From Gymnopilus junonius (taxonomy: Eukaryota; Basidiomycota; Agaricomycetes; Agaricales; Galerinaceae): a stretch of 64,000 bases of DNA. A program made the translations under genes and the position numbers. Shown here one piece after another: positions 53,898 to 60,522 of the stretch. The DNA is taken from NCBI GenBank assembly GCA_015501075.1, contig JADNYJ010000004.1:310001-374000 (forward strand), in the 5' to 3' direction. The notes beneath the pieces were generated by a model. The model searched no databases and was not told where the DNA came from. It saw nothing but the letters and a program-made list of their open reading frames with translations. Position 1 is the first letter of the stretch, and each line of letters begins with the position of its first letter.

Positions 53898-54286
53898 CAC
53901 TGTTTTTCATCTTTATTCTACGTAAGCTAATTATTCCAAGTATACCCAGGTTCGCCGCGTAGCTGCTTAGAAGCTTCAAACATCAAATCCTTTTTGACTG
54001 GCTATATCCCTCTGTTTCCCTATGAAGCAGTGGGCTGAAATACAACCTATATTCTTGGATTTAATCTATGGATTCAGCAGCTATAGGTTCCTACCGTTCA
54101 ACTATGAGCCACCTTGAGCTTGTGTTACCTTGGAAAGCCTACTTGAGGCAGCTTCTTTCAAATCATAATCCCTTGGTTCAACTGAGATATAGAAATGTAC
54201 CTATTTATCTCTGCCTCTGCTTTTTGCATTTTTTGAGAAAATGGATTTTTTATATGATACATATTTTTACACTTGCTAAATTAAAA
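53898..54286. other. Intergenic, A/T-rich before the putative element
   Basis: No gene seen. A/T content rises toward 54240-54286, immediately before the tRNA fragment. Confidence 0.4.
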
Positions 54287-54307
54287 CAACCGACTTTAGC
54301 TCAGTTG
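54287..54307 (+). pseudogene. Truncated tRNA-Tyr 5' fragment (putative left attachment site)
   Basis: CCGACTTTAGCTCAGTTG starts at 54290 and matches the acceptor strand and A box of the intact tRNA-Tyr at 58722 with one C-to-T change; the CAA just before also matches. Similarity stops abruptly after GTTG. Nothing after it resembles a B box. Confidence 0.7.
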
Positions 54308-54347
54308 CACCCTAGCCGAACGAGGCGAGGACATACCCGACTTGTAT

Positions 54348-54490
54348 GTGCTGCGAGGCCGTAGGCCGATCGCTGTAGCATCGACCCTGTGAAGCCGCAG
54401 GCCGAGCTCTGTTTTTCCATCGTCGTGAGGCTGCAGGCCGATCCTCATCTTGGACATTGACCATTGACGCTGTGAGGCCTCATGCCGAGC
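54348..54490. repeat. Tandem GGCCG-type repeats
   Basis: Four imperfect copies of a short motif, GAGGCCGTAGGCCGATC, GAAGCCGCAGGCCGAGC, GAGGCTGCAGGCCGATC and GAGGCCTCATGCCGAGC, spaced about 30-65 bp. Each has partial internal symmetry and could form a small hairpin. They lie just inside the putative left end of the element. Confidence 0.6.
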
Positions 54491-55440
54491 TCACCATCCG
54501 TCATCGTGCACGAGTCTCGCCTACCTACGTCACCAGCCTCGTCACCGTTCGTCGTCGCCATCGCTCCCTACAACACTACCCGTCGTCGCCGTCGTGACTT
54601 CCTTCATCACCACCACACTGATCGCTGTAACATCGACACTGTCGGGCCAAGCTCTCTTCACCGCCACCCGTCGTTGTCATCGTCGTGACTTTGTGTAGCA
54701 CGGGCGCGTCACCACTCCTCGTCACCACTCATCATCGTTGTTGCTCACTGCCCATCGTCCTCGTACCCTTGTCGTCGCTCCCCGCCAACCCAAACTCTCT
54801 TCATCTATCATCGTATGTCACCACTGCTCATCGCCATCACCCTTGCTCACTGCCATTACTGCCCCTGCCCATCGTCACCATCACCCTTCCTCATCATTTC
54901 ACCGTCGTCGCTCTCACCTCACCCACATCGCCGTCGCGCTCATTAATCGCGATCAGCGCGATCGTGCCTGATTCCCAACTGGCTACGTCATCACCTGACC
55001 GCGTTTGTGTCACCCATCACCGTCCTCTTTTGCCTCCTGCTACCGCCACCACCTCCATCGCCTGCCATCGTCAACGGCTCCATCCCCACGTCGTTCTACA
55101 TCTGGCCTTCATCTTCATCAACAGTCGTGCTACCCAGACCGCGTTTGTCTTACACCACCGTCCTCGTTGTCTCAACGCCACCCTCATTGCCATCGTCAGT
55201 GGCTGGTCCCCTCCCTGGCCTTCATCCTTCATCACTGCGTCGCCGCAGATTGTAGTCGCTCACCGCCGTCATAGTTTCTCTCATCGCCGTCCCATCGGAA
55301 TCTACGTCTGTCCTAGTTGCTCCCTCATTGCCATTGACCACCATCCTCACGACCGTTGTTGTCGTCTCTCTCACCTCCCCTCAATAGTCTACCTGCATAA
55401 TACGCAGATTGCGCATGCATCCCACTTTTATCAACAAATT
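54490..55440. repeat. C-rich low-complexity tract
   Basis: Nearly 1 kb dominated by CATCGTC, CACCGTC and CATCACC words on the plus strand. All three plus frames are open over long stretches because stop codons are rare in such sequence, so the 252-codon frame at 54685-55443 is not evidence of a gene. Confidence 0.7.
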
Positions 55441-55559
55441 TGAATTAATTATAGTATACTGTAAAATGCACGCTCGTCACCGTGGACATCTGCCGCCGGC
55501 TTCCTTTTCATCGCAAGAGTCAGGCAAAAATCTTCTCAAGAGGTAAAAAGTCGTACACA

Positions 55560-56740
55560 AATGTAAACACTACTCTGTGGTCAGAAACGTGTGTATGAAG
55601 TCCATCGTCTATCCACGGACGAGCGTGTGTATGAGCTGTCTAAAGGCACCCTCGCTCTCCAAGAGCTCGTCCTCACTTGGATCCCCAACTGTCCTCGGCA
55701 GCTCCTTCATGGTGGCCGAAAACGTGGGGCTTCGACCCGTCTTGCCAGTCTTCTAGGACACATCGAGCGACCAGCATAGGTCCTCACACCAAACTTGGTT
55801 CGGTCGTTAGCGAAAAGGACCAGCGATGTCATCAAAAAGGTAAGCACCTTTAGAAACATTTTTTTCAAATCATTTCTTGCCTTGATGATCTTTTCGTGAT
55901 GGCCCTGAAGTACTTTATAGGATATGACATTGTCCGCAGGCAGTCGCCCAAACGCGTCCTCTCGGAACTGCTGCTTCAAAACCTGCGTCAGCTCCGCCCA
56001 CTCGACCGAAAATTTGATGGCGTGAATCGTTCACATCACCGACATCACAAAACTGTAAAGAACATGGGCACTCTCACTGCCTGTCATCAGGCTTTCACGT
56101 CCATGCAGGTGCGCAACCCGATCCGTGTTTTCTTCCAAAGCGAAACTCTGGGCTCCAATCTCGGTAAAGTCTCCTTGCTTGGTAAGTTGGGCTTTCTTTT
56201 TGGCGCGTCAGTAAATACTTGATAAAAACTGTACTGGCCATACCAGATGATCATCATCAGGCGCAGGCCGGTAGCCCCTCAACAAGCGTACAAACCCTTC
56301 CTGCTCAGCCTCTAGCAGCGTCTTTCTGCCAGGACAGAGCAAATACGCAACCCACTCTCCAGCTTCAATGGCCCCTGCATCGCTTGCTCTGATCATTTCT
56401 ACCACCCTTGAAGCGGCTCTCTGAAGAAACCTGAGTTCATTCCTTGCCAAGATAAAGCAGAAACTCACTGCTTGGACCTTTTCAGGTTCCTCCTAATTGC
56501 TGTTCCCCTCCTCCTCTTCAATATCGCTGGCTGTCATGATCCCGGTCATATGCGTGTGCATCAACCCCATGGGCCAGTGCACCTTGTTGAAAGATCGTGC
56601 ATATTGCTTATGAGTCCCTGGCATCGCAGTCATAGACACCGGTTCAGGGTTCATAACCTGCATATATGCGCGTTCCAGGGCATGGTCCATCATGGAAGCA
56701 AAAGCAAAACCCAGAATAGTAATGTGTATTCCATTTTAGA
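55560..56740 (-). pseudogene. Decayed ORF, copy A of an element-associated family
   Basis: Reading on the minus strand: MDHALERAYMQVMNPEPVSM, GLMHTHMTGIMTASDIEEEE, FLQRAASRVVEMIRASDAGA, YLLCPGRKTLLEAEQEGFVR, LTKQGDFTEIGAQSFALEEN, FREDAFGRLPADNVISYKVL, ELLESEGAFRQLIHTLVRG. It parallels copy B at 59000-60522 throughout. Lesions: TAG near 56490 where copy B has TGG; TGA near 56020 after SFVMS; a TAG where copy B has CAG before TMDFIH. Function unknown; no known transposase motif recognised. Confidence 0.6.
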
Positions 56741-56761
56741 AAATACCACCCAAACAAACAA

Positions 56762-58682
56762 ATGTCGCATATAACCCCTCCTGTGCAACTCTCCTCCCCA
56801 ACCATGCCTCCAAGTCCGTTTCTCGTGCCCAGCACTCCTGCGTCACAGAAACATAAACCTGCTCAAGGCAATTACTCTGGTAAACATGGTCACAGGATGA
56901 TCGGCGCCGAGTTTGAGAACAAGTTTAAGGACAGGAAAAGACTGGATAAACACCTTGCTGCTCTCACAGTACGACATCTGAAACTGCTGGGCCAGGCTAC
57001 TCTCGTCAAGTATGCCTGTGCGGAGCGGGCCCTCCTGCAGTTCCTCACCTGGTATCACCGGTCCGAGGAAAAGGTGCTTGTCTCCATCTCTGTGGACAGA
57101 AATTTTCCTCTCATCCCTTTGCTCAAGCTATTTTTTGGCAATGTCGCACAAGATGGAAGGTCAAGCCTTGGCATGGGCCTCACAGGCTGGACTTTGCGCA
57201 CAACCACGGACTTTGTCAGGAGCTTCTTGAGCATGGTATATATCTCCCACCTTTTCTACATCTGGTCTCTCATACACACTTCCCTCAGCTGCGCCGACAT
57301 GGAGTTCAACCACCTACCCAAGCTCAAAAGATGTCATTTTTAATGTATACGCCTTTCTTGCCTACTGGTAAACGTTCTGCTCACTCTCCCATGACCCAGA
57401 GCTCTATCATTTTCGCCTACGCAAAAATTGCAAAGGCTCTCCTTGGCAAGGTAAACAATCTCCCGCAGTCGCCGTTCTTTTCAACCTGAAGCCTGGTTAG
57501 GTTTCATCCTCAGATCCTTTCGGTATGAATTCGCTAGCTTCATGATGCCAAGGATCCCCGACGTACAGCTCAAGTACCTCATGGGCCACCAAATCAACAC
57601 GAACATCGTGGCAACTACTTATCAAGTCCCAGATCGTGCCATTGACATTGTGGCTATCCGATTCGGTGGCGTCGAGAACAACGATTTCCCAGAACATCAT
57701 TCCTCGGTTGCCTGGGCAAAGGATACTTCATAGGTCTCTCTGGAAGAACTGCAAAATAACACCGCGCTGAAAGAGCTGATAAATAAGCTCAACGAGGCTG
57801 GGCAGCACGTCTTTGACAAATTCGGTTGTGGATCAAAAGAGGTTGCCGATCAGGCAAGTCGTCTGCAAAATCTTCACACCCTCTCTCACCCCTCTTTCTA
57901 GTTTGCAGATCATGATCTGGTCAAAAAAGTGGGTAACGCTTGGGCAGACGTCTTTTTGGGATACGGTCAATTGACATCTTTCATCGTACGTTCGCTTTTT
58001 TTTTTCATTTCTTTTCACGTTCTTCCTGACTTCTGAAGGCAAATTTCCGGAATGCAGTGGTCTTGCAACGTAAACAGAATGACATGTCCGAAACACGGAT
58101 CTCATATCTTCTTCAAGCATGAACACGAGCAAAATGATTACCCACCTTCACAATATACATAACTATAGGCTCGTCGAATGTTCGCAGGTACACGACCACA
58201 TTCCAGATTGCTTCAAACTCCCGGACACAGGGTTCCTCACAGTCACTGATGCCGAACTTAAGTTGGAACATCTGCATGAGGCGATGCCTACGACAAACCT
58301 GGTGGAATGGCGTCGGTCCACAGTACGGGGCACACAGGCAAGACGTATTCGTGCCCTTGCCTGTCCAGATGATGCCGAATCTTCGACCAGTGCTGGCCCA
58401 CTTCCGGTTGCCGAACCATCGATCAGTGCTAGCTCGACTAATGCTGACTCGCCCGTCATACTTCCAGTTGCTGAATCGTCGACTAGTGAGGAAGAAGAAA
58501 CTCGACGGTGTATGGTCGTCTTTGCTAAACAAAACTCGACCGTCCCCGCCGAGGACAAGGTTATAAACTATTTGATCCGGGAGAACATCACTATTGAAGA
58601 GTGTGAAGGTCTGACGGCTAGCAATATTTTAGAGCACGGCAAAGTGGCATTGTGTAAATTATTGAAATCTTGGGCTTCCTAA
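56762..58682 (+). CDS. Tyrosine recombinase-like protein (element integrase candidate)
   Basis: Exons 56762-57235, 57289-57344, 57400-57450 and 57514 onward join in one frame. N-terminal region (residues about 55-105, LDKHLAALTVRHLKLLGQAT and VKYACAERALLQFLTWYHR) looks like the helical core-binding domain. The catalytic-domain signature is RSFRYEFASFMMPRIPDVQL, KYLMGHQINTN and ATTYQVPDR: candidate Arg, the GH motif and the Tyr nucleophile. I could not place the first catalytic Arg. After YQVPDRAIDI a TAG at 57731-57733 interrupts the frame, which continues (VSLEELQNNTALKELINKLN, FADHDLVKKVGNAWADVFLG); a weak 63-nt intron (donor GTCGAG) could remove it. A further intron would use a GC donor (GCAAGT at about 57854). 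The last exon ends LCKLLKSWAS. Fold-level assignment; Crypton or Starship-type (DUF3435) affiliation is uncertain. Confidence 0.55.
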
Positions 58683-58721
58683 ATACTGTACTTGTATTTG
58701 TTCTCTTCTATTTAAATCAAC

Positions 58722-58813
58722 CGACCTTAGCTCAGTTGGAAGTAGCGCAAGACTGTAATTTGGATACAAAATGATCATCTTGAGGTCGCCTGTTCGAACC
58801 AGGCAGGTCGGAT
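58722..58813 (+). tRNA. tRNA-Tyr (GTA) with 18-nt intron
   Basis: Perfect 7-bp acceptor stem CCGACCT/AGGTCGG with A as discriminator, perfect 5-bp T stem GCCTG/CAGGC around TTCGAAC, and anticodon stem CAAGA/TCTTG. The loop reads CTGTAA, then an 18-nt intron (58760-58777) placed directly after position 37 as in all eukaryotic tRNA-Tyr genes, then A. Anticodon GTA. The D stem has a C-U mismatch (GCTC against TAGC). A pyrimidine/T-rich terminator follows. Confidence 0.88.
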
Positions 58814-58999
58814 TTCTTTTTCTCCTTTTCTGTTCAAATTTGAGATTTGTAGCGGCTTTGGCGTTATTCGTCGGTACACACAATGAAATCCCTTAGTAAT
58901 AAAAAAAAGGAAGAAAACAGTGAACTCTAGAGAACTTGAAAGAGGCCCCTGGAATTTGAACTATTTATAAAAATTTCACATCTTGGAAGAATAGAAGGC

Positions 59000-60522
59000 T
59001 AATTTGCAGACTCCGGAGGCCCACAAGGTCTTTGTCGACTCGCAGCTCTCGGAGTTTGGCATAGGTGACTACTACATTGTTTTGAATCCTTGACCATTGC
59101 CAAGCCTGCGGCCACGTTCCCATGCTTACGAGTGGTTCTTCTTTTTAGAAGCAGAAACCCTTCGGAGCCATGGTGGTGGTTAAACGTCGAATCGAGCAGT
59201 TTATTTGTTTGGCAATGTCAGTATTTCCTTGAATGGAATACTGATTGCTTTTCTTGGACTATGCTCCTAACCATGGCGGACCGTGCACTAGAAGCGCATA
59301 TATGCATGTAATGTGCCTCGAACCCCTTTCCGCAGCTGCCACCACACCAACAACTAAAAAAACGATATACCAAGACCATGGCCAGAGTCATCACTTGGTT
59401 GGGTTGATGCATATGCATATGCATATAGCTGGCGTCCGGGCCACGAGCGGAACTGAGGATGAGAACTCGGAGGATGAATGGGAGGAGCCTTACGTTTGAC
59501 AGATTGTAGGCCCTTTTGCTTGTGCCGTGAATTTGACTGACCGGTCTTTGGTCCAGACGGCTGCTTCTTGGGCTGAAGATATCGGGGAAGTAACCAAAAC
59601 GGCGGCCATTGGAATGGATCGTATATTTGCTCCATCCGCGCAAACGGACACTCTTGGTAGCCGAGCAGGAAGGATTTGTGCGCCTGCTAAGGGGCTACAA
59701 GCTTGTGCCCCATAGACGATCAAGTGGTGCGTGCATGACAAGATTGCTAATTGCTAACCAACATGTTTTCTGACACATAAAAGCAAGCGCTACTTGAAAA
59801 GCAGGGCAACTTCAAGTTCAAGGAAATCGGAGAACGAAGTGTTGCTTTAGAAGCAAACGAGGACTGCCTTGCTCGCCTGCATAAGCGCGAAGCCTTAATA
59901 GGTGATAGTCAACATGTCGACGCTCTCTATAGTTTTGTCTTGTCGACCAAGTTTGCATTTGAATGGGCTGAACTACCTTCGAAGACGCGCTTCCGACACG
60001 ATGCCTTCGAAAGGCTAGCACCTAGCATGACCTTTGAAGCATTACAGCACCGGCATGAAAAAATCATCAGGGCTAGGAACGAAGTCAAAAAATTGTTTCT
60101 CGAAGTACGTACAGAATTTTCCCTTTCTGCCTTGCTGGACGCCCCAAGTGTCGTACGGCAGTGGCAAAACCGGCCGTAGCCCTACGTTTTCAGCAACCTT
60201 GAAGAAGCTCCTCAGTCAAGCTGAGGATCTAGACGAAAACGACCTTTTGGAGAGTGAGGGCGCCTTCACGAAGCTAATGAACGCTCTCGCCGACGGACAG
60301 ACCATGGACTTTATTCACAAGTTTTTCAAGGCTCATCGAACTACACGAATATTGCTGAAATGCCGAACAAGAATTTGCTTTGAAAATAGACTTTGCGGTG
60401 GCATGTGCGGTGGTGAAAGAGACTGCGAGAGCGAAACAGATAGTCTGATACGTGGTTTAAGTGACCCAGCATACCTGACGAGGCTGAATTTAATGCTGAG
60501 GCCAGCGATGGTAGACGGGTGA
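59000..60522 (+). pseudogene. Decayed ORF, copy B of an element-associated family
   Basis: Plus-strand homologue of copy A, just beyond the tRNA. Readable pieces: TPEAHKVFVDSQLSEFGI, AYMHVMCLEPLSAAATTPTT, GLMHMHMHIAGVRATSGTED, VQTAASWAEDIGEVTKTAAI, WIVYLLHPRKRTLLVAEQEG, FKEIGERSVALEANEDCLAR, WAELPSKTRFRHDAFERLAP, EKIIRARNEVKKLFLE, LLESEGAFTKLMNALADGQT, ending LMLRPAMVDG at 60522. Relative to copy A it has a single-base loss near 59297 and an 8-nt loss near 59612, both shifting the frame. A Cys-rich stretch lies near the end (RTRICFENRLCGGMCGGERD). Function unknown. Confidence 0.55.

Follow-up and report, generated by a model that had tools for sequence, protein, structure and literature searches.

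A 64-kb stretch of the Gymnopilus junonius genome (64,000 nucleotides, hereafter the window), taken from an assembly of 58 Mb in 898 contigs and lying on the contig designated C334, contains a 4.4-kb block enclosed between a displaced 5′ fragment of a tRNA-Tyr gene and a complete tRNA-Tyr gene. The block carries a gene for a putative tyrosine recombinase (YR), which ends just ahead of the complete tRNA, and a divergent second gene, ORF2. The same architecture was observed directly at a tRNA-Phe locus, and the remains of a deleted copy were found at another tRNA-Tyr gene. We consider it probable that the block is a decayed copy of a family of integrative DNA elements that enter tRNA genes by recombination in the 5′ half or the anticodon loop and restore the tRNA at their right end. 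The features of the locus are the following.

54281..54307, plus strand: left junction, native tRNA leader and displaced tRNA-Tyr 5′ fragment (nucleotides 1–18), 25/27 identical to the right copy
54352..54490, plus strand: four left-end repeats of approximately TGNGAGGCCGYAGGCCGAKC, starting at 54352, 54388, 54424 and 54471 (pattern search)
55585..56762, minus strand: ORF2, divergent from the recombinase-like gene and degenerate here, with stops (homology to C368 and to the inverted remnant)
56804..58682, plus strand: putative tyrosine-recombinase gene with introns, box I block missing and an in-frame TAG in this allele (exon pieces, the C368/C469 relative, alignment)
57501..57730, plus strand: box II exon, RSFRYEFAS...LKYLMGHQ...TTY (alignment, motif pattern)
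58712..58738, plus strand: right junction repeat, predicted to restore the tRNA 5′ end (27-nt repeat, similarity to C157)
58721..58812, plus strand: complete tRNA-Tyr(GTA) with an 18-nt intron and a D stem drawn with 3 bp (ARAGORN; unreported by Rfam)
59264..60342, plus strand: inverted ORF2-type remnant to the right of tRNA-Tyr (homologous to C368:214660-215787 and, inverted, to 55585-56762)

Junction repeats and the tRNA-Tyr gene

The sequence CCGACYTTAGCTCAGTTG is present at 54290-54307 and 58721-58738. These are two matches in the window at up to three mismatches, where 0.09 would be expected, and none of 100 shuffled sequences contained two. The repeat can be extended to 27 nt, covering the tRNA-Tyr leader and 5′ end, and the starts of the two extended copies are 4,431 bp apart. 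The left junction has CCGACTTTAGCTCAGTTG, as do the tRNA-Tyr genes on contigs C310 and C35, and the right copy reads CCGACC. With introns allowed, ARAGORN identified the tRNA-Tyr(GTA) and its intron at the right junction; without introns it reported zero tRNAs across the window. These results bear out a preliminary description of this DNA, which had noted a truncated and an intact tRNA-Tyr flanking a block of about 4.43 kb, the repeated sequence at its ends and a recombinase-like gene that stops just before the intact tRNA. The stop codon of that gene (TAA, 58680-58682) lies 38 bp ahead of the tRNA, against 39 bp in the earlier account.

The 4.4-kb block was found at two places in the assembly, C334 and C462, and the near-identical copy on C462 is most simply the other haplotype. 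The contig pairs C334/C462, C310/C35, C368/C469 and C345/C201 were taken as haplotypes in counting loci; C310 and C35, for example, are 96–98% identical across two long compared stretches. A dispersed tRNA-derived short interspersed nuclear element, raised in the preliminary description as another source of the left fragment, was rejected, as the 201 bp around the fragment (54200-54400) match only the two haplotype copies in the assembly. Beyond the element, C462 carries an insertion of about 760 bp (C462:11820-12582), 54 bp past tRNA-Tyr, that is absent from the window at 58866. It bears the inverted ends CAGCTCTTTTC...GAAAAGAGCTG and looks like a haplotype-polymorphic DNA-transposon insertion.

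Related loci and element anatomy

A search of the assembly with the recombinase-like protein recovered two loci, one on the contigs C334 and C462 and the other on C368 and C469. At both, the gene ends just ahead of a tRNA, and a matching 5′ fragment lies at the far end (Tyr at one, Phe at the other). On C368, the relative is on the minus strand, with its TAA 20 bp before nucleotide 1 of tRNA-Phe(GAA). The displaced tRNA-Phe 5′ fragment, 34 nt long and the same in C368 and C469, lies 7,131 bp upstream in the former and 6,359 bp upstream in the latter. In this genome, the combination of recombinase-like gene, adjacent tRNA and displaced 5′ fragment at the opposite end occurs more than once. The preliminary description had suggested looking for other copies with a recombinase gene next to tRNA-Tyr; the tRNA-linked relative, with its fragment 7.1 kb upstream, stands at tRNA-Phe.

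Similarity between the tRNA-Tyr locus on C157 and the window starts at window position 58645 and extends to the end of the tRNA at 58812 (82% across 183 columns); the 90 bp adjoining the C157 tRNA match the right end of the window element. A displaced 26-nt tRNA-Tyr 5′ fragment starts 176 bp upstream of this tRNA, with 150 bp in between, and searches at the C157 locus matched no part of the element other than its right end. These observations support the view that C157 holds a deleted element copy at a second tRNA-Tyr. In blast comparisons at E <= 1e-3, similarity between C157 and the window was confined to the right end and the tRNA, that between C368 and the window to ORF2-type sequence and the left repeats, and C157 and C368 showed none.

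The ARAGORN labels of several of these tRNAs are shifted by introns (Asn for C157, undetermined (gtaa) for C310 and C35, Ile for C223, C1 and C345). We read C157, C310 and C35 as tRNA-Tyr, and C223, C1 and C345 as tRNA-Phe, because they are similar to copies called Tyr and Phe. With haplotype pairs merged, element sequence and a 5′ orphan are found at two of the three tRNA-Tyr loci (five copies) and at one of the five tRNA-Phe loci (seven copies), and both contigs of each main locus (C334/C462 and C368/C469) are occupied by the element. A genome-wide search with a D-arm pattern at up to one mismatch gave 13 matches, 10 of them in the tRNA genes and orphans named here and the others on C145, C190 and C312.

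The Tyr and Phe elements share a common anatomy. The orphan 5′ fragment stands at the left and is followed by a stretch of raised G+C content that holds the short repeats; next come the two genes, ORF2 (minus strand) and the recombinase-like gene (plus strand), and, after a small gap, the complete tRNA. The G+C content is 0.54–0.58 at 54500-55499 compared to 0.44–0.46 just to the left, and 0.51 in the corresponding stretch of C368 compared to 0.48 overall. In the whole assembly, 19 matches to TGNGAGGCCGYAGGCCGAKC were reported at up to two mismatches (four in C334, four in C462, six in C368, five in C469 and zero elsewhere), and the reversed sequence, used as a control, gave none. All but two of the 19 lie within 500 bp of a left junction; one match each in C368 and C469 lies about 1.4–1.5 kb inside. 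The pattern was derived from the element loci themselves, and the finding is its absence elsewhere.

ORF2 homologues were likewise reported only at these loci. The 18 matches in the assembly include the inverted remnant to the right of the window tRNA, and the window ORF2 is homologous at the DNA level to both C368 and that remnant. In two ORF2 pieces compared between the window and C368, the proportion of synonymous differences (pS) was 0.66–0.67 and that of nonsynonymous differences (pN) 0.25–0.28. The 3′ part of the inverted remnant is 73% identical to C368 (pS 0.57, pN 0.15), compared to 57% for the internal copy. Its 5′ part is 25% identical (pS 0.71, pN 0.58), as would be expected of decay or poor alignment. 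A piece of up to about 100 bp inside the tRNA-Phe element, C368:217400-217496, matches eight contigs outside the element loci at 81–97% and is apparently a dispersed repeat.

The recombinase-like gene

Tyrosine recombinases carry the residues R, [K/R]-x-x-R, GH and Y in this order in their boxes I and II. The C368 protein contains the box-I-like sequence GLRPGCLVEI followed by KSFRYGFATYML...LKYLMGHQPGSNLAKTVY, and box II of the window protein reads RSFRYEFASFMM...LKYLMGHQINTNIVATTY. The form common to the loci is [KR]SFRYxFAxxM...LKYLMGHQ...Y, preceded in C368 by GLRPGCLVEI. A loose box II pattern was present in seven of eight reference recombinases; a loose YR pattern matches unrelated frames too and carries no weight. 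A strict pattern, written after the protein was seen, matched one of the eight reference YRs and had 0 matches in 40 shuffles of the window; among seven sequences, it matched only the four recombinase copies. Because of these motifs and the attachment-site-like architecture of the loci, the protein is probably a tyrosine recombinase.

Other tests of this assignment weigh against it. The box II position that is usually the first histidine is K or R here. Pfam searches gave only unrelated matches below threshold, NCBIfam and Protein Data Bank (PDB) sequence searches gave zero matches, and PHROGs gave a single match of unknown function (E 0.047). Alignment by hhalign against eight prokaryotic YRs reached 0.8%, hardly above 30 shuffled controls (at most 0.7%), and sub-ranges of the protein reached at most 3.2% (the box II piece) versus 86–99.9% in leave-one-out controls. 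In a hidden Markov model (HMM) search that reported 320 entries, four of 500 shuffles scored higher than the box II piece of C368, which came fifth; the window piece came 22nd. Two single-sequence structure models of database proteins, both at a predicted local distance difference test (pLDDT) score of about 37, were too poor for use. Three protein searches, two of which scored only about 8,000 best-word candidates, returned only records of this genome, and a viral_contigs scan found zero relatives. The earlier proposal that the gene encodes a tyrosine recombinase has the motifs in their YR order for it and the negative profile comparisons (Pfam, NCBIfam, PDB and hhalign) against it.

The recombinase-like exons of the window and C368 share 50–57% protein identity, and three of them have pS of 0.72–0.86 and pN of 0.23–0.33. 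Together with the ORF2 values, these figures point to purifying selection on both element genes, of which only the direction is safe, as synonymous sites are near saturation. The window copy, by contrast, is dead as it stands. It cannot be active because it lacks the block with the box I arginine and, in the C334 allele, is interrupted by an in-frame TAG, which the C462 allele does not share. The box I block is also gone from C469, which lacks 0.9 kb at nearly the same place as the window gap, with 3 bp common at the break; C368, which retains the block, is the only one of the four gene copies that keeps both boxes. The points of loss lie near C469 position 2790 and near window 57362-57385, in copies about 50% diverged, as if the block had been lost repeatedly. 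Of the earlier proposal of tRNA-targeted integration, the arrangement itself recurs at the tRNA-Phe of C368/C469 and, deleted, at C157; the copy for which it was made is no longer functional.

Integration into tRNA genes, alternatives and known systems

In the mechanism that we favour, the element encodes the putative YR and a divergently transcribed second protein and bears its repeat cluster near the left end. A circular form would carry, right after the recombinase gene, the 5′ portion of the target tRNA together with a leader of its own, and the recombinase would recombine this portion with the corresponding stretch of a tRNA gene in the chromosome. Of the split gene, the 5′ part would then be stranded as an orphan beyond the left end of the element, and the 3′ part would be completed at the right end by the element-borne 5′ part, which leaves a whole tRNA gene. 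The circle, the recombinase chemistry, the crossover point and past transposition are all steps that we infer from the architecture. The crossover would probably fall in the anticodon loop, on its 5′ side, or close by, because the longest orphan (tRNA-Phe) matches through ...AGACTG, letters present there in the full tRNA-Tyr. The 18-nt match in the window may place it farther from that loop than it is. When orphan and right-hand tRNA were joined at TAGCTCAG, ARAGORN at default settings called a tRNA-Tyr for the window and a tRNA-Phe for C368; the C157 join was matched only at a lowered threshold and labelled Asn. Both Tyr orphans (window and C157) carry T6 like the tRNA-Tyr genes on C310/C35, and both full element-side tRNA-Tyr genes share C6 and an unusual, altered D arm, which agrees with an element origin of the right-hand 5′ half without proving it.

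Several observations are less easily accommodated. The C6 could be explained by selection on a working tRNA alone. The orphans end at nucleotide 18 (window), 26 (C157) and 34 (Phe), and one fixed crossover therefore needs trimming of two of them; the shorter Tyr orphans may have been trimmed later, or the crossover may lie within nucleotides 8–18. The Rfam tRNA model gives no report for the window tRNA-Tyr even at permissive settings, at which it found a tRNA in all six related loci, including the C157 tRNA-Tyr at 45.2 bits (two of the six at the fast gathering setting). In view of this miss, we take the window tRNA-Tyr to be probably, not certainly, functional. Finally, C345:5060-5315 and C201:162212-162465 (both minus strand) show a mirror arrangement. 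Between a complete tRNA-Phe and a tRNA-Phe 3′ half that comes after it, they have DNA resembling the sequence to the right of tRNA-Phe on C368 (73 bp to the query end, about 95 bp by eye). This may reflect a second integration mode, an excision product carrying the tRNA 3′ half or a local duplication. Carriage of a whole tRNA with a 3′-half orphan on the right was considered and rejected, as an ungapped search at up to 7–8 mismatches, which would miss short remnants, found none in 5.2 kb right of the tRNA in the window, about 10 kb each in C462 and C368 and 2.2 kb in C157; 3′-half orphans were seen at C345/C201 only.

The repeat sits exactly at both ends of the block, and the protein is without a profile match to YRs. 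Both points would also suit another type of transposon that targets the tRNA 5′ region and leaves a long target-site duplication at a staggered cut, and DNA transposons that target tRNA genes do exist, Dada being described in the available text of PMC3706591. This explanation is unlikely, since repeats of 27–34 nt far exceed the 6–7 bp of Dada, and no DDE, reverse transcriptase or integrase domain was found in the part of the reading frames that was scanned. A duplication moreover predicts that left equals right at each locus, drift aside, whereas the left copies resemble the C310/C35 tRNA-Tyr and the right copies are alike across loci.

Still less probable is a tandem duplication of a tRNA gene followed by decay, with an unrelated gene pair in between and a common history of the loci through segmental duplication. 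The full tRNA-Phe and 3′-half copy at C345/C201 would fit it, and the inverted ORF2 remnant speaks for local rearrangement, but the loci hold different tRNAs (Tyr and Phe), and the blast comparisons among the window, C157 and C368 found no similarity beyond the element, the tRNA and the ORF2 remnant. A gene would hardly come by chance to end 38 bp ahead of one tRNA and 20 bp ahead of a different one, each time accompanied by the same repeats and the same second gene. We give an equally low chance to an endogenous virus or plasmid that encoded a site-specific integrase and has lost everything but its integration module. In endogenous nimaviruses, YRs occur in association with 28S rDNA and telomeres (PMC10871703, in part), and YRs are described in some algal polinton-like viruses; the integration sites of the latter had no tRNA genes nearby, as far as the available text goes (PMC12220804). 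No structural or replication gene appeared in the scanned frames, the same two genes without other recognised cargo occupy both full loci, and the viral_contigs scan revealed no relative.

Among known systems, Crypton elements of the CryptonF type resemble the element in being fungal YR-encoding DNA elements that are proposed to move as circles (PMC3212892, available text, in which the word tRNA occurs 0 times). However, no GCR1_C domain was present in the Gymnopilus pieces scanned with Pfam, and the terminal repeats of CryptonF measure 4–6 bp compared to 27 nt in the window and about 34 nt in C368. Starships are likewise fungal mobile elements classed by their tyrosine recombinase and, in the portion of PMC12134995 available, are described from Pezizomycotina. 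They are giant cargo elements, whereas those described here span 4.4–7.1 kb with two genes, and the Pfam scans of the Gymnopilus proteins gave no DUF3435 match. Membership in CryptonF or Starship was rejected on domains and repeats. Dada elements share the location, being eukaryotic DNA transposons that insert inside high-copy tRNA genes, some at the A box TAGCTC; they differ in having a DDE transposase, which was absent from the Gymnopilus frames scanned, as well as short target duplications, and the available text makes no mention of target restoration (PMC3706591). Membership in Dada was rejected on enzyme and target duplication. Other eukaryotic tRNA-targeting elements are described as landing beside tRNA genes (PMC5006619, in part), and no report of a YR element that restores eukaryotic nuclear tRNA genes was recognised in the open-access literature, as far as its texts were available.

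We regard it as somewhat better than an even chance that these loci represent a eukaryotic element lineage whose recombinase is unrelated by profile to those compared, and which targets low-copy nuclear tRNA-Tyr and tRNA-Phe genes near the anticodon loop and restores them. The strategy would have come by descent from that of prokaryotic islands or by convergence on it, and the tRNA 5′ cargo would rewrite the host tRNA at each insertion. If this is true, the strategy of bacterial and archaeal islands is workable in a nucleus too, at a tRNA gene with few loci. It would also add a new lineage of recombinases whose natural target is conserved, and provide a signature for screening fungal genomes, namely a whole tRNA at one end and an orphan 5′ fragment at the other.

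The closest parallel is found in prokaryotic integrative elements and islands, above all those with archaeal pTN3-like integrases. In such islands, integration splits a tRNA gene, element sequence restores the tRNA and the displaced fragment is left at the other end (Islander, PMC4383910, in part). According to the accessible part of PMC8371274, the sites used by prokaryotic integrases within the tRNA are the anticodon stem-loop, the T stem-loop and the 3′ end. Archaeal integrases generally prefer the last of these; those of the pTN3-like type use the 5′ half. Compared to these islands, the Gymnopilus element lies in a fungal nuclear genome among intron-containing genes and tRNAs, its protein is without detectable profile similarity to the eight prokaryotic YRs, and it has a second gene of unknown function and left-end repeats. 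The likeness lies in the regenerated tRNA at one end and the displaced fragment at the other (window, C368/C469 and C157). The gene near the junction (38 bp before tRNA-Tyr and 20 bp before tRNA-Phe), with ordered YR motifs and no profile match, is a candidate for the site-specific integrase. By analogy, the element would work like the tRNA-restoring islands of prokaryotes, with a recombinase whose family membership is putative.

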